Positions 19,914 through 26,777 of a DNA stretch of 26,777 nt are shown here, in pieces (the stretch's first letter is position 1; each line of letters opens with the position of its first letter). The stretch covers positions 1-26,777 of the IMG/VR virus record IMGVR_UViG_3300042460_000140; one strand, given 5' to 3'. This DNA comes from a virus. Made by a program: the position numbers and the translations under genes. The notes beneath the pieces were generated by a model. The model was not told the DNA's origin and ran no database searches. It was given only the letters and a program-made list of their open reading frames with translations.

Positions 19914-20049
19914 TTCGTCTCTCCAGATCAGCAATGTGTGCTGTAACTTTGTTGTAGGCCCGAGCCGCGCTGTTGTGCGTCCGGGTGCGTATCGCAAGCT
20001 CAGCCTGGGCTGCTCTAAGTCTTGCTCTAAGTTGTGTGATTCGATTCAC
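19885..20049 (-). CDS. Small coiled-coil protein after the helicase, GTG start
   Basis: A 54-residue all-helical protein, MNRITQLRARLRAAQAELAIRTRTHNSAARAY then NKVTAHIADLERRIAELAQISN: two amphipathic helices with heptad-like leucine and isoleucine spacing. The GTG at 20049 overlaps the helicase TGA (GTGA), so it is probably translated only after the helicase. Below the 60-residue cut-off, but fits the gapless chain precisely. It may be a helicase partner or unrelated; no evidence favours either. Confidence 0.65.
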   Translation of the reverse strand: MNRITQLRARLRAAQAELAIRTRTHNSAARAYNKVTAHIADLERRIAELAQISN

Positions 20050-21326
20050 TTTAATGCCTCCAGTGCAATGTCAGAAATAGCGCGTTTATCATGGAGCGCC
20101 GTCCATATCTTTTCGTCTACCGTTTTGTTCGCCACCATGACGTAACACCACACATCGTGCCGCTGGCCGCTGCGGTGCAGGCGCCCAATAGTCTGTTCGT
20201 ACAGTTCCAGCGACCAGGGCAGCGACAAGAAGATGATCTTGCTGCCGCCATGCTGAAGGTTCAGGCCGTGGCCTGCTGACTTAGGGTGCGCCAGCAGCAG
20301 CTCGACCTTGCCTGCGTTCCATCGTTCGATGGCGTTTGGTTCGTCCAGCGTCACGGCGCGGGGATACCGCCGCTTCAGTTCAGCCAGCTCCTCCCGGTAG
20401 GTGTAGGCGATGATGGTGTTGGCGTGTTGGTTTTCGGCCAGTAGGTCGTCTAGGGCGTCGAACTTGGAAGTGTCAAACCAGACGGTCGAGTCGCCGTACA
20501 CGAACCCGGACGCCATCTGTTGCAGTTTGGCCGTGACTACGCCAGCGTTGACGGCCACCGCCTGGGCGTCGGGGAACTGCGCCACAAACTCCTTTTTCAT
20601 CTGGTCGTAGGGTTTGCGGTCAACAAGGTCAAACCGCACCGGCACAGTGTGCAACTCAGGCAGCTTGTCCTTGTACTCGCCCGGCTCCAGCACGAACGTG
20701 GCTGGCTTGATACGCTCCATGACCTTCTCAAGCGCGCCTGGGCGCGGCTCCCATTGGTTGAACTCTTTGTTGACCAGGTAGAAGTACTGCTGCTGGAACG
20801 CGCCCTTGGCCCGGCCCAGCAGCGACTGATCGACAATCTTGCACTGGCCGAACACGTCCTCCAGGCCGTTGCTGGTGAACGAACCTGTCAGCCCCCACCG
20901 TACTTGGCAGGTCAGCATCTTGTTGAGCGCCTTGAACCTGGCGCCGCTAGGGTTCTTGAGCCGGGTCAGTTCGTCAAATACGATTCCGTCAAAGCTCAGA
21001 GAGGGCAGGGACTGCAAATTGTCGTAGTTGGTCACTACCACATCACAGTCAGATTTAAACGCAGCCTCGCGCTGTTTAGGCGTCCCTACGGCCACACTAA
21101 TACGCAGCCCCGGCGCCCACAGCCGGGCCTCGGTCGGCCAGACGCTGACGGCCACCCGTTTAGGGGCCAGCACTAGGAACCGGCTGACATGACCCGCGCT
21201 CAGCATGGCCTGCATAGCCGTCAGGGCGATGGCGGTCTTGCCTGCGCCGACCGGCGCCAGTATCATGGCGCGGTCGTTCTCGTACAGGAAGTCAACTGCC
21301 TGTTCTTGATAGGGGCGAAGGTTCAT
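20046..21326 (-). CDS. SNF2-like DEAD/DEAH-box helicase
   Basis: A 426-residue superfamily 2 helicase of the SNF2 type that uses ATP to translocate on or unwind DNA. Motifs appear in order: the Q-like start LRPYQEQAVDFL, Walker A APVGAGKTAIA (Gly27-Thr31), LVLAPKRVA (Ia), VVVTNYDNL, Walker B VFDELTRLKN (Asp118-Glu119), motif III GLTGSF (145-150), a second RecA-like domain with IIAYTYREEL, motif V SAGHGLNLQHGG (350-361) and motif VI QTIGRLHRSGQ (378-388). It is single-domain sized and lacks chromatin-type extensions. Phage SNF2 helicases are often paired with VRR-NUC nucleases; here the VRR-NUC gene lies about 1.4 kb upstream with a cassette between. The start overlaps the transporter stop (ATGA), with AAGG five bases upstream. 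Confidence 0.93.
   Translation of the reverse strand: MNLRPYQEQAVDFLYENDRAMILAPVGAGKTAIALTAMQAMLSAGHVSRFLVLAPKRVAVSVWPTEARLWAPGLRISVAVGTPKQREAAFKSDCDVVVTNYDNLQSLPSLSFDGIVFDELTRLKNPSGARFKALNKMLTCQVRWGLTGSFTSNGLEDVFGQCKIVDQSLLGRAKGAFQQQYFYLVNKEFNQWEPRPGALEKVMERIKPATFVLEPGEYKDKLPELHTVPVRFDLVDRKPYDQMKKEFVAQFPDAQAVAVNAGVVTAKLQQMASGFVYGDSTVWFDTSKFDALDDLLAENQHANTIIAYTYREELAELKRRYPRAVTLDEPNAIERWNAGKVELLLAHPKSAGHGLNLQHGGSKIIFLSLPWSLELYEQTIGRLHRSGQRHDVWCYVMVANKTVDEKIWTALHDKRAISDIALEALK
21284..21308. repeat. Direct repeat copy B: helicase 5' end
   Basis: A 25-bp segment within codons 6-14 of the intact helicase gene, identical to copy A at 22755-22779. Similarity extends to the start codon at 21326 with only synonymous differences. 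With copy A it flanks the DpdA/T-fold-like/YhhQ cassette. Confidence 0.9.
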
Positions 21327-21799
21327 GCTGCCTTACGCCCAATCAACCACGCCCACAAAGCGCCGCCAGCAACCTTGGCCACAAATTGCATGACAACGAT
21401 GTGAGGCATCAGCGCGCCAAACGCGATGGTTGGAAATAGCAGGCTATCAACGGCAGCGCCGGTCATGTTGCTGCCATTGGCGCGAAACATCCACGACCCA
21501 CGCAAACGCGCAAATGTGCCCCAGTCTACAAGCGCTGCTGCGGTAAACGCACACGCTGATGCAACGGCAATCTGACCTGCGGCGGGGTTAAAAATGTACG
21601 TTAGCGCGCCTGTCGCGGAAATAAGCGCGCCCATTTGCCAAATGCGAAGGCGAACATGTAGCCAGTCACGTAGGGCTAGGTCTAAGCCGATCAAAAAGAA
21701 CGCGTTGATTGGGCTTATAGCGGGTCCAAACGCAGTCACGCTAAGGTTGGCAAGCGTCATTGCTATGGCGTAAGCGGAAATTGCGATAGTGAGGTTCAT
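21323..21799 (-). CDS. yhhQ: YhhQ/VUT-family 7-deazaguanine precursor transporter
   Basis: A 158-residue integral membrane protein of the VUT family, whose E. coli member YhhQ imports preQ0. About six membrane segments are visible, beginning IAISAYAIAMTLANLSVTAFG. Family marks are the paired aspartates in FLIGLDLALRDWLH (Asp40, Asp45), the amphipathic FARLRGSWMFRANGSN segment, and NMTGAAVDSLLFPTIAFG (111-128), the usual motif before the last helices. It is shorter than the 221-residue E. coli protein, as phage versions often are. It overlaps the 79-residue gene upstream and the helicase downstream by four bases each. Next to a DpdA-like gene, this suggests uptake of preQ0 or preQ1 for DNA modification. 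Family call is good; substrate is inferred. Confidence 0.8.
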   Translation of the reverse strand: MNLTIAISAYAIAMTLANLSVTAFGPAISPINAFFLIGLDLALRDWLHVRLRIWQMGALISATGALTYIFNPAAGQIAVASACAFTAAALVDWGTFARLRGSWMFRANGSNMTGAAVDSLLFPTIAFGALMPHIVVMQFVAKVAGGALWAWLIGRKAA

Positions 21800-22035
21800 G
21801 GTCTTGTCGTTTCTATAGTGACGCCGTGGTGGTCAGCGATGAGGGTTTGTTTTCCACCAAATCTTTCATGCAGCTCTTCAGCGATCAACTCATGGAAGCC
21901 ACTGTCGTATCGTTTGAATTGCTCAAGAATTTGTTCTACAGGGATTATTTCTTCAGTGGTGATTTGCAATTGGTACTTGACGCGTACGTTGTTGATGGGA
22001 CATGTGCAGAAAAATTCAGCCTTGTATGTGTTCAT
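21796..22035 (-). CDS. Small T-fold-like protein, possibly QueF-related
   Basis: A 79-residue protein lying between the DpdA-like and YhhQ-like genes. YKAEFFCTCPINNVRVKYQLQI has the CP dipeptide (Cys12-Pro13) in the position of the QueF catalytic cysteine. PVEQILEQFKRYDSGFHE resembles the QueF VESKSLK...FR...FHE segment, ending in Glu49, the equivalent of the 7-deazaguanine-binding glutamate. GKQTLIADHHGVTIETTRP could close the T-fold. The Cys-to-Glu spacing (37) is near that of B. subtilis QueF (42), but the catalytic aspartate seven residues after the cysteine is missing. It may therefore be a degenerate or binding-only T-fold protein rather than a reductase. ATG 22035 overlaps the DpdA end by 20 bp; a longer frame to 22179 is a shadow of it. 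Function is a hypothesis. Confidence 0.62.
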   Translation of the reverse strand: MNTYKAEFFCTCPINNVRVKYQLQITTEEIIPVEQILEQFKRYDSGFHELIAEELHERFGGKQTLIADHHGVTIETTRP

Positions 22036-22735
22036 AAGTTGATGGTGCGTTGTGTGACTCAATGCGTGACCGCATGACTTGCGCTCGCGCTTCCTTGGTT
22101 GGTGGCAGGTAGTTCCCCTTCGCCCAGTTCTTGTCAATGCCGACGTTGCGGCCAATGTTGGTCGAGTCGGCGCTTGCAAACGGGAGCCGCGTAAACACTT
22201 TGGGGTTCAGCATTCGAAGACCGTGCATTTTGACCAACGGGCGCCCTTGCTGGTCACAGACCACGCGCATTGCTTGATCAATTCGCGCCCACCACGCGTC
22301 GTTTCCTACTGTGGCGTATTGCCCGCTGCTACCAAGGCAAACCCGTAAGTAGGTTGCGGCCATTCGCTCTAGCCTATCTAATGATTCGTGCATGTGCCAC
22401 ACCGGCGCGCCAAAAGCGGCGCCCAGCGGCCACTCGTCCAACAGCGCGTCATTGGCATCCTCATCGCCGTCAATAACGTCCGGGATGACAGCGAAGTCAC
22501 AAGACGGGATGCGTCTGCACGACTCGGCCCACTCATAGAACGGGCGCCAGTCGGTAACGGGTCGGCCAGCTTTCCACGCGGAAAAAGCGCCGTTGTCAAC
22601 CGCAAATGATTGGCACACTTCTACAGCTATGCCTAGTTGGTCTGAATGGGCAAAACTAACAAACGCGTGTCCTGCATCAACAGCTTTTGCCGCAGCAGTT
22701 GCTGGCGTTATGGGTAGCCCGTGGTAATGAATCAT
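22016..22735 (-). CDS. dpdA: DpdA-like 7-deazaguanine DNA transglycosylase
   Basis: A 239-residue protein with a tRNA-guanine-transglycosylase-like series of motifs along a probable TIM barrel. FAVDNGAFSAW (44-54, Asp47) stands for the TGT DSGGF motif. CDFAVIPDVIDGD (79-91) carries the substrate-binding aspartate. PVWHMHE follows, then VCLGSSG (132-138) in place of the GGLAVGE loop and VKMHGLRMLNP (168-178). PFASADSTNIGRN (185-197) has Asp190 where TGT has its nucleophile, followed by an RN as in TGT. DpdA proteins swap guanine in DNA for 7-deazaguanines. The neighbouring transporter supports this. ATG 22735 overlaps the stop of the helicase remnant (ATGA). No TGT zinc-binding domain is visible, as expected for DpdA. 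Activity is inferred from the family. Confidence 0.76.
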   Translation of the reverse strand: MIHYHGLPITPATAAAKAVDAGHAFVSFAHSDQLGIAVEVCQSFAVDNGAFSAWKAGRPVTDWRPFYEWAESCRRIPSCDFAVIPDVIDGDEDANDALLDEWPLGAAFGAPVWHMHESLDRLERMAATYLRVCLGSSGQYATVGNDAWWARIDQAMRVVCDQQGRPLVKMHGLRMLNPKVFTRLPFASADSTNIGRNVGIDKNWAKGNYLPPTKEARAQVMRSRIESHNAPSTYEHIQG

Positions 22736-22797
22736 TTTTTAGATTCCAACTCAAACAGGAAGTCAACTGCCTGTTCTTGGTAGGGTCGTAAATTCAT
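22732..22797 (-). pseudogene. Helicase 5'-end remnant, now a leader peptide into dpdA
   Basis: An open frame of 21 codons reading MNLRPYQEQAVDFLFELESKK. Its first 14 residues are identical to the start of the SNF2 helicase encoded at 20046-21326, after which it diverges and stops. It keeps a helicase-like ribosome binding site (AAGGA eight bases upstream of ATG 22797) and its TGA overlaps the dpdA ATG (ATGA). Codons 2, 3, 4 and 6 differ synonymously from the intact copy. In another frame the same DNA encodes the C-terminal RTGS of the VRR-NUC protein, explaining why it has survived. It is best read as the left-over start of an ancestral helicase, now serving to couple translation into dpdA. 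Confidence 0.85.
22755..22779. repeat. Direct repeat copy A: helicase 5' remnant
   Basis: A 25-bp segment identical to 21284-21308. It lies in the overlap region of the VRR-NUC end and the helicase remnant. With copy B it brackets the modification cassette as an apparent insertion footprint. Confidence 0.9.
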
Positions 22798-23038
22798 CTA
22801 CTTGTTCCTTTGTCCACAGCACACAGTACCGTTGGTTCAGCCGCGCCATGTCGGCGGCAAAGACTTTCTGTAGCGCGGACAGCCGACCGCCGACGGTCTT
22901 AACTTCCACGAACCACACCACGCCGCCGGGCAGCACCACGATGCGGTCAGCTACGCCGCCGTGGCCGCGCCACTTGTAGGCTATGCCGCCGAGTGCTTTG
23001 ACGCGCTTGACAAGGTAGGCTTCAATGTGTTTTTCCAT
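22763..23038 (-). CDS. VRR-NUC domain nuclease
   Basis: A 91-residue stand-alone VRR-NUC protein, a PD-(D/E)XK-type nuclease usually linked with Holliday-junction or flap processing in phages. Motifs: MEKHIEAYLVKRVKALGGIAYKW, GVADRIV (Asp31), PGGVVWFVEVKT (Glu45, Lys47), then GGRLSALQKVFA (Gln57). It is full-length for the family. It is the first gene of the leftward operon, 10 bp from a possible -10 element and without an obvious ribosome binding site. Its last 35 bp overlap the helicase 5' remnant, which suggests that in an ancestor VRR-NUC and helicase genes overlapped directly. Partner function with the helicase is inferred. Confidence 0.9.
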   Translation of the reverse strand: MEKHIEAYLVKRVKALGGIAYKWRGHGGVADRIVVLPGGVVWFVEVKTVGGRLSALQKVFAADMARLNQRYCVLWTKEQVDEFTTLPRTGS

Positions 23039-23047
23039 GTATTGAAC

Positions 23048-23075
23048 TTTATCACAGAAAAAAAGTTTTGCACAA
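23048..23075 (-). promoter_or_regulatory. Possible leftward promoter for the VRR-NUC operon
   Basis: On the minus strand, TTGTGC at 23075-23070 and GATAAA at 23053-23048 are separated by 16 bases, a weak sigma70-like pair. Transcription would start only a few bases before the VRR-NUC ATG, in line with its missing ribosome binding site. The -35 overlaps the palindrome at 23070-23089. Weak evidence. Confidence 0.3.
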
Positions 23076-23095
23076 AATTATTTTTGTGCTACTAT
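23068..23095 (+). promoter_or_regulatory. Rightward early promoter (sigma70-like)
   Basis: TTGCAC (23068-23073) and TACTAT (23090-23095) with a 16-base spacer, in a local A/T-rich stretch. It stands in the only clear intergenic region between divergent gene blocks, upstream of the rightward replication genes. It is a fair match to sigma70 consensus and the best promoter seen in the window. Confidence 0.6.
23070..23089. promoter_or_regulatory. Perfect 8-bp-arm palindrome over the promoter, likely operator
   Basis: GCACAAAA, four bases (TTAT), then TTTTGTGC: perfect inverted repeat covering the -35 and the spacer of the rightward promoter and also the -35 of the possible leftward one. This is the usual geometry of a dimeric repressor or activator site. 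No repressor gene is visible in the window. Confidence 0.6.
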
Positions 23096-23133
23096 TCGTT
23101 CACCCAATCCGGGTAACAACGAAAGTAGAGTCC

Positions 23134-23424
23134 ATGAAAACAGCTATTAAGATGTATGTGTACTTCTCAAAGTACTCATTTGACAAGGTGGGGACGTTTG
23201 CCGCCTACAGTTTTCGCACACCAGACACGGCTAACCTGACCTTGGTTTGCGAACAAGACATTGAGTTCGACGTGCCCGAAAACTACGACCCCACCGCCCA
23301 GAAGATCGCCGCGCTGCAAGCCCAAAAAGCAAAGGTGCAAGAAGACTTCGACAAGTCCGTGTTCCAAATCAACGAACTCATCAGCAAACTGCAAGCCTTG
23401 GAGTACACCAGTGAACCACAGTAA
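23134..23424 (+). CDS. Small early protein of unknown function
   Basis: A 96-residue protein, MKTAIKMYVYFSKYSFDKVGTFAAYSFRTPDTANLTLVCEQDIEFDVPENYDPTAQKIAALQAQKAKVQEDFDKSVFQINELISKLQALEY. The first half is beta-prone; the second is a charged coiled coil beginning near residue 55. I do not recognise a defined family. ATG 23134 lies downstream of the promoter and palindrome; an in-frame upstream start at 23068 would place coding sequence over the promoter and is rejected. The 3' end overlaps the nuclease start by 14 bp. By position it may assist the RecB-like nuclease or replication. Confidence 0.75.
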   Translation: MKTAIKMYVYFSKYSFDKVGTFAAYSFRTPDTANLTLVCEQDIEFDVPENYDPTAQKIAALQAQKAKVQEDFDKSVFQINELISKLQALEYTSEPQ

Positions 23425-24535
23425 GATCGTCGGCGGCTCGACCGCCAAGCGCGTGATAGCCTGCCCCGGCAGTGTGGCCCTAGTGGCGCAGATGCCGCCG
23501 CAGGTGGAGAACAAGTACATGGCCGAGGGTACGGCCCTGCACTCAGCCATCGACTACCTGGTCAACGACGGTGACGCCAGCCCCTACAGCCTGCTCGACA
23601 AGAACTTCAACGGTGTGGCGCTGAGCGAAGACCATTGCGAGAAGCTGAAGTCGGCACTGGCGCTGCTGAACGAAGTTGACCCTGCGGAGGAGATGAACTT
23701 CGCCACAGAGACGCGCGTCGGCTTTGGCGACTTGCTGCCGGGCGTGTTCGGCTCGACCGACCTGATTGGCCGCATAGGCAACCGGGCCATCGTGCTGGAC
23801 TGGAAGTTTGGCGACGGTGTGATCGTGGACGCCGAGGAGAACGCGCAGCTTATGTTCTACGCTGCTGCCGCCATGCGGACGCAAGAGTCGGCATGGGCGT
23901 TTGATGGCGCCACTGAGGTGGAGTGCGTCATCATCCAGCCGCCGATGGTGCGGCGTTGGGTGACCACACCCGAGCGCATCAGGCAGTTCGAGCGTGAGCT
24001 GGTGCAGGCCGTCAAGCAGTCGGCCCTGCCTGACGCGCAGCTAATGGTGGGCGACCACTGCCGGTTCTGCCCAGCCAAGCCCATCTGCCCAAATATGACC
24101 GGCGCCGTTGACCGGGCTATCGCCGTCAAGATAGACAAGCTCGACAAGAACTTGATCAGCGACTACCTCAAGAACGCCGACCTGCTGGAGACGTGGATAT
24201 CCAGCCTGCGCGAGCTGGCGCTGTCCATGATGGAGTCGGGTGCTAAACTGCCAGATTACAAACTGGTCGCCAAACGCGCGATCAGACAGTGGACCGACGA
24301 GGACAAGGCCAAGGTAGCCTTGTTCGCGTTGGGCCTTGAAGAATCTGAAGTGATGGAGACATCTATCATGTCGCCAGCGAAGGTTGAGAAGGTGCTGAAA
24401 AAGCGCAAGCTCGCCCTGCCTGTCGATGTGGTCGTCGCCATCAGTTCGGGTAACACCTTGGCAAGCGAGGATGACCCTCGCCCCGAGGTGCTTTTGCTGG
24501 GCAAACAACTTGCCCGTCTCTCTAAACTAGTCTAA
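23411..24535 (+). CDS. DUF2800-type Cas4/RecB-like PD-(D/E)XK nuclease
   Basis: A 374-residue nuclease with RecB/Cas4 family landmarks: KRVIACPGS (Cys18), AEGTALHSAIDYL (His44), GVFGSTDLIG (Asp117), VLDWKFGDG (Asp130, Lys132), ENAQLMFYA (Gln146), and a C-terminal DHCRFCPAKPICP (Cys217, Cys220, Cys226). The three C-terminal cysteines with the early Cys18 would bind a [4Fe-4S] cluster as in Cas4 and AddB. Phage proteins of this type act as 5'-3' exonucleases in recombination or replication. GTG 23411 is chosen for its TTGGAG site and the small overlap with the previous gene; the frame is open to 23261 but that part reads as a shadow. The next gene is a likely ssDNA-binding protein. A strong family call. 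Confidence 0.9.
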   Translation: MNHSKIVGGSTAKRVIACPGSVALVAQMPPQVENKYMAEGTALHSAIDYLVNDGDASPYSLLDKNFNGVALSEDHCEKLKSALALLNEVDPAEEMNFATETRVGFGDLLPGVFGSTDLIGRIGNRAIVLDWKFGDGVIVDAEENAQLMFYAAAAMRTQESAWAFDGATEVECVIIQPPMVRRWVTTPERIRQFERELVQAVKQSALPDAQLMVGDHCRFCPAKPICPNMTGAVDRAIAVKIDKLDKNLISDYLKNADLLETWISSLRELALSMMESGAKLPDYKLVAKRAIRQWTDEDKAKVALFALGLEESEVMETSIMSPAKVEKVLKKRKLALPVDVVVAISSGNTLASEDDPRPEVLLLGKQLARLSKLV

Positions 24536-24544
24536 AGGAAAATC

Positions 24545-25159
24545 GTGAGTAATATTTCAGTGTTCTCCAAAGCTGGTCTGCCAGCTATCAGTACCTTATC
24601 CTCCGCTCTTAAAAGCATGGCCGTTTCGGCGTCCGGTGCTGTCATCCTCAAGATGGACAAGACCGGCCATTGGGTGTTTGGTGCCGACCAGACCGAGGTC
24701 GAGGATGACTCGACTTGGGCCGTCAACCCCTTCTCTTTCGTCCACGGCTTCATCGCCTGGGGCGACGGTGAGGTGTTGGGCGAGAAGATGGTAGCGGTCA
24801 GCCAGCCGCTGCCAGAGATTGAAGATGCGCCGCCATCAGCCAAGCGTGGCTGGGAGCAGCAGATTGGCATGAGCCTGAAGTGCGTGTCGGGCGACGATAA
24901 GGGTATGGAAGTGCGCTACACCACCACCTCGGTGGGCGGTAAGCGTGGCGTCCAGGCTATCGCCGCTGCGCTGGCCGAGCAGGTCGATGTAGATCAGACT
25001 AAGCCAGTTGCTGTCGTGAAGTTGAAGAAGGATCACTACCAGCACAAGTCCTACGGCAAGATTTACACCCCGGTGTTTGAGATTGTCGAGTGGATAAGTA
25101 TGGAGGGTGAACCCGAGGTGGAGGCGCCTGCTGGCCGTCGCCGTCGCGTAGCAGCTTAG
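24545..25159 (+). CDS. Probable ssDNA-binding protein (DUF2815-like position)
   Basis: A 204-residue protein. Central WAVNPFSFVHGFIAWGDGEVLGEKMV and GWEQQIGMSLKCVSGDDKGMEVRYTTTSVGGKRGVQAIAAALAEQV, then VAVVKLKKDHYQHKSYGKIYTPVFEIVEW, look like an OB-type, beta-rich fold; the C-terminus is basic (GRRRRVAA) instead of the usual acidic SSB tail. Proteins of this type follow DUF2800 nucleases and precede DNA polymerases in many phages, consistent with coating ssDNA during replication and recombination. The start is a GTG at 24545 with AAAGGAA upstream. Function is inferred from position and predicted fold; no defining residues can be pointed to. Confidence 0.65.
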   Translation: MSNISVFSKAGLPAISTLSSALKSMAVSASGAVILKMDKTGHWVFGADQTEVEDDSTWAVNPFSFVHGFIAWGDGEVLGEKMVAVSQPLPEIEDAPPSAKRGWEQQIGMSLKCVSGDDKGMEVRYTTTSVGGKRGVQAIAAALAEQVDVDQTKPVAVVKLKKDHYQHKSYGKIYTPVFEIVEWISMEGEPEVEAPAGRRRRVAA

Positions 25160-25164
25160 TTTTT

Positions 25165-25187
25165 GAAGCCCCGTGACAGGGGGCTTT
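25165..25187. promoter_or_regulatory. Hairpin upstream of the DNA polymerase gene
   Basis: AAGCCCC (25166-25172), a seven-base loop and GGGGCTT (25180-25186) form a strong stem just before the polymerase ATG at 25193. The G-run that could pair with 16S rRNA lies inside the 3' arm, so the stem may mask ribosome binding. The following sequence lacks a T-run, so it is not a clear terminator. Confidence 0.55.
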
Positions 25188-25192
25188 GAAAA

Positions 25193-26777
25193 ATGATCTG
25201 GCTCGACTTTGAAACACGCTCTGCCTGCGACCTAAAAAGTCGCGGCGTCTACAACTACGCGCAAGACCTCACGACCGAGGTGCTGTGTATGTCCTACGCC
25301 GTCGATGACGGCGAGGTGCTGACCTGGCTCCCCGGCCAGCCACTGCCCGACCTGACCGGCCACCGCATCATGGCGCACAACGCTGCCTTTGAGCGGCTGA
25401 TCTGCTGGTACGTCTTGCAGGTCAACATCCCGCTAGAGCAGTTCTACTGCACCGCAGCACAGGCCCGTGCCAATTGTGCGCCAGGGTCGCTGGAGGACGT
25501 GGGCCGGTTCATGGGTGCGTCCATGAAGAAGGACCACCGAGGCGCTGCCCTCATCCGCAAGATGTGCGTCCCGCCCTTCCAAGAGTCGGCTGAGCTGACC
25601 GCCGAGATGGTGGCCTATTGTGAGCAGGATGTCCGGGCCATGAGGGCCATCAGCCAGGCCATGCGCCCACTGTCCGAGGAGGAGCTACTGGACTACCATG
25701 TCAACGAGCGCATCAACGACCGTGGCGTCCTGGTCGATGTGCCGCTCTGCCGTGCAGCCGTGTCCTACGCCGCCACAGAGGCCGCTGAGATTGCCCAGAT
25801 TGTCAAGGAGGTGTCAGAGGGTGAGCTGACCTCGGTACGCTCACCTAAGATGCGCCAGTGGGTCTGGGACAGAGTTGGCCCCGAGGCCCGTGCGCTGATG
25901 CAGAAGGACGATAAGGTCAGCATCGACAAGACCGTCCGCGCCAACCTTCTTAACTGTGATGGAGTACCACCTGATGTCCAAGAAATCATCCAGTGCGCCG
26001 ACGACCTGTGGGCCTCATCAGTCGCCAAGTTCGCCCGACTCGCGCAGCTTGCAGATGAGGAGGACAGTCGAGTTAGGGGTGCTTTTGTTTTCGCTGGAGG
26101 CTCAGCTACTGGCCGCGCATCTAGCTATGGGGCGCAGGTCCATAACTTCACACGCAAGTGCGCCAAAGCACCCGAGGATGTCCGGGCTGCAATGTGCCGG
26201 GGTCACGCCATCGTCCCCAAGTTCGGCAAACGAGTTACCGATGTCCTCCGGGGGATGCTACGGCCTGCACTGATACCAGCCAAGGGTAAACACCTAGTTG
26301 TTGCCGACTGGTCATCCATCGAAGCTAGGGTAAACCCTTGGTTGTCTGGGACGGGCCAGGCCAAGTTGGACATTTTCGAGTCGGGCCTTGACCCCTACAT
26401 CGTCAATGCCGCCGGTACTTTCCAGCGCACCTATGACGACATCAAGGCCGACTACGACCGAGACGGCGAGTCCGCCCAGCGTCAGATCGGCAAGGTGCAG
26501 GAGCTGGCCTGCGGGTTCGCGGGTGGCGTGGGCGCCTTCGCGTCGATGGCCAGAATCTACAGTGTGCGCCTGTCCGAGGCCGACTCCAAGCGCATGGTGG
26601 ACGCCTGGCGCCGCAACAATCAGTGGGCCGTCGGCTTCTGGTCGCAGCTCGAGCAGCAGTACACCAGGGCCATGCGAAATAAAAATAATGAGTTTGCTGC
26701 CGGGCGGGTTACCTACCTGTTCGACGGTCTGCATCTCTGGTACGCTCTACCTTCAGGCCGGGTGCTTTGCTACCCGT
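25193..26777 (+). CDS. Family A DNA polymerase with 3'-5' exonuclease, 3'-truncated
   Basis: The frame is open from ATG 25193 to the right edge (528 codons seen), so the C-terminus is missing. A proofreading domain comes first: MIWLDFETRS (Asp5, Glu7), AHNAAFE (61-67), and YCEQDV (142-147, Asp146). The polymerase part has SATGRASSYGAQVHNFTR, motif A VVADWSSIEAR (Asp372), and motif B RQIGKVQELACGFAGG (Arg430, Lys434). The final motif C (HDE) would be outside the window. This is the replicative polymerase of the phage. It follows the nuclease and ssDNA-binding genes; no primase is seen here. No frameshift is seen. The G-run hairpin just upstream may limit its translation. Confidence 0.95.
   Translation, partial: MIWLDFETRSACDLKSRGVYNYAQDLTTEVLCMSYAVDDGEVLTWLPGQPLPDLTGHRIMAHNAAFERLICWYVLQVNIPLEQFYCTAAQARANCAPGSLEDVGRFMGASMKKDHRGAALIRKMCVPPFQESAELTAEMVAYCEQDVRAMRAISQAMRPLSEEELLDYHVNERINDRGVLVDVPLCRAAVSYAATEAAEIAQIVKEVSEGELTSVRSPKMRQWVWDRVGPEARALMQKDDKVSIDKTVRANLLNCDGVPPDVQEIIQCADDLWASSVAKFARLAQLADEEDSRVRGAFVFAGGSATGRASSYGAQVHNFTRKCAKAPEDVRAAMCRGHAIVPKFGKRVTDVLRGMLRPALIPAKGKHLVVADWSSIEARVNPWLSGTGQAKLDIFESGLDPYIVNAAGTFQRTYDDIKADYDRDGESAQRQIGKVQELACGFAGGVGAFASMARIYSVRLSEADSKRMVDAWRRNNQWAVGFWSQLEQQYTRAMRNKNNEFAAGRVTYLFDGLHLWYALPSGRVLCYP

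Follow-up and report, generated by a model that had tools for sequence, protein, structure and literature searches.

A perfect palindrome lies in the 95-bp gap (positions 23039-23133) between two divergent operons of a freshwater phage. Does it act as an operator through which a single regulator switches both operons, as a sequence-only reading of the same DNA had proposed, or does it owe its existence to something else in the gap? We approached this question in the window, that is, the whole 26,777-nt stretch of DNA that was analysed, and in its relatives. A literature search returned no paper recognisable as treating this locus.

Gene content and relatives

The genes on either side of the gap are the following.

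20046-21326, minus strand: SNF2-type helicase (PF00176, E 4.9e-15; phrog_62, E 1.5e-125)
21323-21799, minus strand: PF02592 transporter-like gene (E 3.4e-13)
22016-22735, minus strand: queuine tRNA-ribosyltransferase-like gene (phrog_887, E 6.8e-71; no Pfam family)
22763-23038, minus strand: VRR-NUC-type nuclease, the first leftward gene (PF08774, E 0.0053, below the Pfam cut-off; phrog_93 endonuclease, E 4.5e-23)
23134-23424, plus strand: first rightward gene, small and exchangeable (phrog_2479, E 9.9e-5)
23411-24535, plus strand: DUF2800 exonuclease-like gene (PF10926, E 8.1e-56)
25193-26776, plus strand: DNA polymerase A-like gene, running off the window end (phrog_17, E 1.9e-65; PF00476, E 8.2e-6, below cut-off)

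A phrog_9528 gene stands between the DUF2800 and DNA polymerase A-like genes. The queuine tRNA-ribosyltransferase-like and transporter-like genes form a pair at 21323-22735 that suggests 7-deazaguanine DNA modification. No Rfam family reached its gathering score in the window, and no tRNA was detected there. Among named phages, the best match to the window DNA is MW202483.1, a podovirus with 64.8% identity across 20% of the query sequence and the same divergent layout. A long relative of about 39 kb, G012, has the same genes at both ends, and a GC-rich short-repeat tract (L189:11800-12000) lies upstream of its small rightward genes. A search of genome bins with the helicase gave eight loci. 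Seven have 67-74% identity: two lie on contigs of a single Rhodoferax bin, two are beta-proteobacterial, two come from unclassified proteobacteria and one is from Mucilaginibacter. The eighth, from a Bacilli bin, has 24%. Judging from these binned contigs, the host is probably a betaproteobacterium.

Relatives of the nuclease gene were represented by the best 80 of 212 confirmed VRR-NUC loci, of which three (L053, L092 and L096) were dropped from the comparisons below because their upstreams were not long enough. The stretches compared differed in length between analyses, and the distinct upstream sequences numbered 52 for 100 nt plus the first start-codon bases (77 loci and the window), 47 for the Shine-Dalgarno and -10 counts, and 49 for the palindrome, inverted repeats and joint promoter score.

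The palindrome in the window

The elements within the gap, in order, are these.

23046-23051, minus strand: leftward -10, TAAAGT, ending 7 nt short of the VRR-NUC ATG and with TG one base upstream
23068-23073, plus strand: rightward -35, TTGCAC
23070-23075, minus strand: leftward -35, TTGTGC (TTGTCA in the L054 clade), with an 18-bp spacer to its -10
23070-23089, no strand: 20-bp palindrome, arms GCACAAAA and TTTTGTGC, loop TTAT
23090-23095, plus strand: rightward extended -10, TGC-TACTAT

The palindrome exists as the sequence-only reading had described it, a 20-bp element with perfect 8-bp arms (GCACAAAA-TTAT-TTTTGTGC) placed over the rightward -35 and spacer and over a possible leftward -35. 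It overlies the whole of the leftward -35 (GCACAA on the plus strand), takes in four of the six bases of TTGCAC, if this is the rightward -35, and also spans the rightward spacer and the TGC that precedes TACTAT. Window-wide it is no commoner than chance: perfect inverted repeats with arms of at least 8 and a loop of at most 10 number five, against a mean of 5.0 in 20 shuffles, and the palindrome has a single match at up to three mismatches, a match of that kind occurring one or more times in 25 of 100 shuffles. Locally it is mildly unusual, a perfect 8-bp repeat being contained in 74 of 2000 shuffles of the 95-bp gap and in 86 of 2000 of the core, 23041-23105.

Could the inverted repeat work as an RNA hairpin, either a terminator or an attenuator? 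Its folds are strong on both strands (minus, -8.9 kcal/mol, z -3.0; plus, -9.3 kcal/mol, z -6.5) and a T-rich stretch follows the stem on the minus strand, yet the stem holds just three G-C pairs, is not well conserved, and sits upstream of both predicted starts, so that neither main transcript would include it. Terminator-like sites in the region number eight against a shuffle mean of 6.8. We consider a role as a hairpin most improbable.

Predicted overlapping divergent promoters

The rightward -35 was assigned as TTGCAC by position with the TTGACA of the L054 clade, both standing 16 bp before the -10, and it shares four base pairs (23070-23073) with the leftward -35. An alternative register, TTTGCA (23067-23072; 17-bp spacer, 3-bp overlap), was scored slightly higher by our script, and the overlap ranges from 3 to 5 bp depending on the register. 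Core elements of the opposed promoters thus overlap, as far as sequence can tell. Their predicted -10 elements are separate (23046-23051 and 23090-23095), which is not the arrangement of a bidirectional promoter with a shared -10. Transcription is predicted to start at about 23038 leftward (23038/23039) and at 23102 rightward, close to the 23041 and 23101 put forward in the sequence-only reading, and the divergent promoters that it claimed are present as sequence elements, both of them conserved in relatives.

We scored as full architecture a promoter score of at least 8 in both directions, a -35 overlap of at least 3 bp and a gap of 6 or 7 nt between the leftward -10 and the start codon. This combination occurs in 30 of 49 distinct upstreams, compared with 0.09 in dinucleotide shuffles, although the rows share ancestry and are not 30 independent events; the -35 overlap of at least 3 bp taken alone is likewise found in 30 of 49, against 2.8 in shuffles. 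The 30 include the clade of the window, the L054 clade and the L073/L086 group. Of 52 distinct upstreams, 43 have TG one base ahead of the rightward -10 that was chosen, a count biased upward by a scoring scheme that rewarded TG. The hexamers of the L054-L069 clade come close to consensus, often as TTGTCA-17-TATGAT leftward and TTGACA-16-TACAGT rightward, and the palindrome of the window is missing. By eye, the leftward half can be followed into distant relatives: L182 (49% protein identity) has TTGTCA-17-TATGAT-6-ATG and L186 (48%) TTGTCA-17-TATATT-8-ATG, while L184 resembles the L056 type and no such promoter was seen upstream in L183, L185 and L187.

The 19 of 49 upstreams outside the full set are those of L043, L049, the L056 type (L056, L060, L070, L071, L072 and L088), L077-L080, L083, L085, L090, L091 and L093-L095. 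In at least L049 and L079-L083 the scoring had to choose between promoters of nearly equal rank, and narrower limits do bring out an overlapping pair there. A leftward -10 at 6 or 7 nt is missing from the L056-type group and from MW202483.1; the latter carries TTGCACAA but has no clear leftward -10.

Is only one direction a true promoter and the other a chance match? A generic promoter scan of 20000-26777 listed neither, both becoming clear solely through comparison with relatives, and the hexamers of the window match consensus weakly. We nevertheless judge this very unlikely, as both promoters stand at a fixed geometry in the 30 upstreams just described, some of them with different flanking genes. 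The poor match to consensus of the window's own -35 boxes could point to a requirement for an activator. A T7-type single-subunit RNA polymerase was not found in 30 related records, many of them fragments, in a search that recovers T7's own enzyme, which makes the host RNA polymerase the likely user of these promoters.

A probably leaderless nuclease message

In 39 of 47 distinct sequences a TAnnnT motif (TAAAGT, TATGAT and TAAACT, among others) leaves a gap of 6 or 7 nt to the VRR-NUC start, which mononucleotide shuffles show at a rate of 0.076. Shine-Dalgarno-like motifs were found in one of these 47 upstreams and not in the other 46, whereas the same script, which uses a loose pattern, reported one at 22 of 30 chosen gene starts of the window. 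The starts where it found none are those of VRR-NUC and seven others, the first rightward gene at 23134 among them. Given a -10 at 6-7 nt from the ATG and no Shine-Dalgarno-like motif, the VRR-NUC mRNA is probably leaderless. The window itself, with a gap of 7 nt and no such motif, has the layout expected of a leaderless gene, namely a -10 at about 6-7 nt from the start codon and no Shine-Dalgarno sequence.

Conservation of the palindrome

Among 49 distinct 75-nt VRR-NUC upstreams, the palindrome is perfect in one, the sequence common to the window and eight loci; L013, a locus found by pattern, also carries a perfect copy. A search of viral contigs with the palindrome gave 17 stretches, with an adjoining VRR-NUC match in nine and none, within the stretch examined, in eight. 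When 25 close records were chosen for comparison, 16 had a match at up to three mismatches and nine had none. The matches of G019 and G020 lie elsewhere and that of G017 is in a shifted register; read row by row, the homologous site has a palindrome with at most two mismatches in 13 of the 25, exact in four. The sequence-only reading had named absence of the palindrome from relatives as a ground for refuting its proposal, and most of the relatives examined have indeed lost or changed the element, many of them with the promoters still in place.

An alignment of 18 chosen representatives of the window's clade, forming 16 distinct rows, locates this decay. From the outermost pair inwards, with G.T taken as broken as befits DNA, pairs are broken in 0 (8 gapped), 3, 4, 5, 6, 3 (3 gapped), 9 and 10 of the 16 rows; with G-U counted as a pair, the two innermost still fail to pair in 9 and 10. 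The palindrome register pairs better than slid controls do, and the five observed pair measures were reached by 15, 22, 22, 68 and 18 of 500 shuffles, a slight excess that is not to be taken as a probability.

Inverted repeats of any sequence are more frequent in the relatives' upstreams than in shuffles, with arms of at least 6 in 30 of 49 against 12.0 and of at least 7 in 16 of 49 against 4.0; they sit at places that differ from clade to clade, and the rows are related. In the L054-L069 upstreams the interval from the leftward -35 to the leftward -10 holds a different inverted repeat, TGTCAAA-N5-TTTGACA, at -34 to -16 counted from the match start. The L095 upstream has a 9-bp inverted repeat, TTAGCACAC-N9-GTGTGCTAA, at -40 to -14 from the match start, and this contains extended -10-like motifs for both directions.

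The palindrome might still be the operator of a dimeric helix-turn-helix regulator, of phage or host, that switches both operons and whose site has diversified in sequence between lineages. Such a site would fit the perfect 8-bp arms lying over both promoters, the weak -35 boxes of the window's lineage, the slight excess in the pair statistics and the surplus of inverted repeats upstream of relatives, those of the L054 clade (7 bp) and L095 (9 bp) included. It fits less well with inner pairs that vary, with positions and spacings that differ between clades and with a palindrome that, at up to three mismatches, is not kept in register in 12 of the 25 chosen records and never occurs twice in one. 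A conserved symmetric site in related phages, as a lambda-type repressor operator would provide, was not found.

Regulator searches bear on the same point. In 30 related records, many of which are fragments, they covered two regulator families, HTH_3 and S24; neither of these, nor any integrase family, gave a match above its cut-off, and G017 had one weak, sub-threshold HTH_3 match. HTH_3 had no match in the window, in agreement with the earlier remark that neither repressor nor activator is encoded there. Two sets of 10 window ORFs against Pfam and one of 10 against PHROGs gave no regulator, the sole match of the second Pfam set being DUF2968, below cut-off, and 10 small ORFs of G012 matched no regulator family of PHROGs. 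A dedicated regulator for the promoter pair is not supported, and we regard the operator as an unlikely, though serious, candidate. Doubtful, too, is a variant in which the overlapping promoter pair, with its leaderless leftward message, is fixed and each lineage has within it an operator of its own that changes quickly; the outcome would be a switch between nuclease and polymerase in phages for which neither an integrase nor a classical repressor family was detected.

Exchange of the first rightward gene

Positions 23138-23417 of the window are unmatched in L013, L023, L028 and L036, though both flanks match, at 95.6-97.6% identity in the first three and 85-88% in L036. In L013 the promoter is identical over the 80 nt shown, and its VRR-NUC has 72% identity. 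Of the distinct upstreams found with other relatives of the first rightward gene, most lack this promoter. The promoter is a stable core among exchangeable parts, and its persistence while the first rightward gene is replaced speaks for the promoter pair. Since this gene has been exchanged in several relatives while the promoter stays, the region may serve as a cassette entry point.

Discussion

We think it fairly probable, taking all parts jointly, that the gap holds an overlapping sigma-70-like promoter pair serving mutually exclusive operons, that the VRR-NUC message is leaderless and that the palindrome is a by-product. The gap at 23039-23133 would then consist of two sigma-70-like promoters back to back, used by the host RNA polymerase. 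With -35 hexamers overlapping on opposite strands, polymerase would bind in one orientation at a time, setting the leftward operon (nuclease, queuine-transferase-like, transporter-like, helicase) against the rightward one (exonuclease-like, DNA polymerase); the antagonism would be strongest when one promoter is highly active. The proposal that one regulator switches both operons together sits poorly with this geometry, which argues for mutual exclusion instead. The leftward message would begin at the VRR-NUC start codon, or within about one base of it.

We read the palindrome as a by-product because its ends are promoter boxes, its inner pairs are poorly conserved and the L054 clade does without it. 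It would be lineage-specific, its outer bases being promoter bases: GCAC of the left arm falls where the two -35 boxes coincide (TTGCACAA, or TTGTGCAA on the opposite strand), and GTGC of the right arm is the extended -10 motif (TGTGC) ahead of TACTAT. An eye-catching palindrome can thus arise from overlapping promoter boxes.

Phage lambda offers a familiar parallel in its divergent PRM and PR promoters and its leaderless cI message. The present locus resembles it in having divergent phage promoters, one of them with a message predicted to be leaderless, and differs in that no repressor and no repeated operators were found, nor an integrase in the 30 related records. On plasmid pLS20 the overlapping divergent promoters Pc and Pr are reported to act as a switch, polymerase binding only one of them at a time (PMC4207663). 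The overlap of opposed core promoters and the exclusion of one polymerase by another would be the same here, where they are predicted; the account of pLS20 includes a regulator, RcoLS20, together with its several sites and looping of the DNA, in contrast to our locus, where no regulator was found. The bidirectional promoters described in Escherichia coli likewise allow two orientations on one DNA stretch to compete for RNA polymerase (PMC12825309). By definition their opposite starts flank a common -10 or lie inside it, and this -10 is pseudo-symmetric; at our locus each direction has its own -10, and it is the -35s that overlap. Marked competition was reported in E. coli as not apparent at basal activity and as appearing once one -35 was improved; by analogy, competition between the two promoters may be slight here (PMC12825309). 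In leaderless genes of Burkholderia cenocepacia a TA-rich motif directly upstream of the start codon is described as replacing the Shine-Dalgarno sequence (PMC4603805), as we see before VRR-NUC; those are host chromosome genes with mapped starts, whereas ours is a phage nuclease gene with predicted ones.

Overlapping divergent promoters are already a known arrangement, and in this respect the locus is mostly ordinary. It does offer a compact, conserved natural example, in uncultured and probably betaproteobacterial phages, in which polymerase competition and leaderless translation are testable together.

Where the rightward transcript is predicted to begin there is a small stem-loop, ACCC-AATCC-GGGT (23102-23114, plus strand), whose fold of -4.8 kcal/mol (z -0.16) is no better than shuffles. 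Similar leader stems occur in L024-, L056- and L060-type relatives, the stem sequence varying by clade (ACCC/GGGT, CGGGT/ACCCG).
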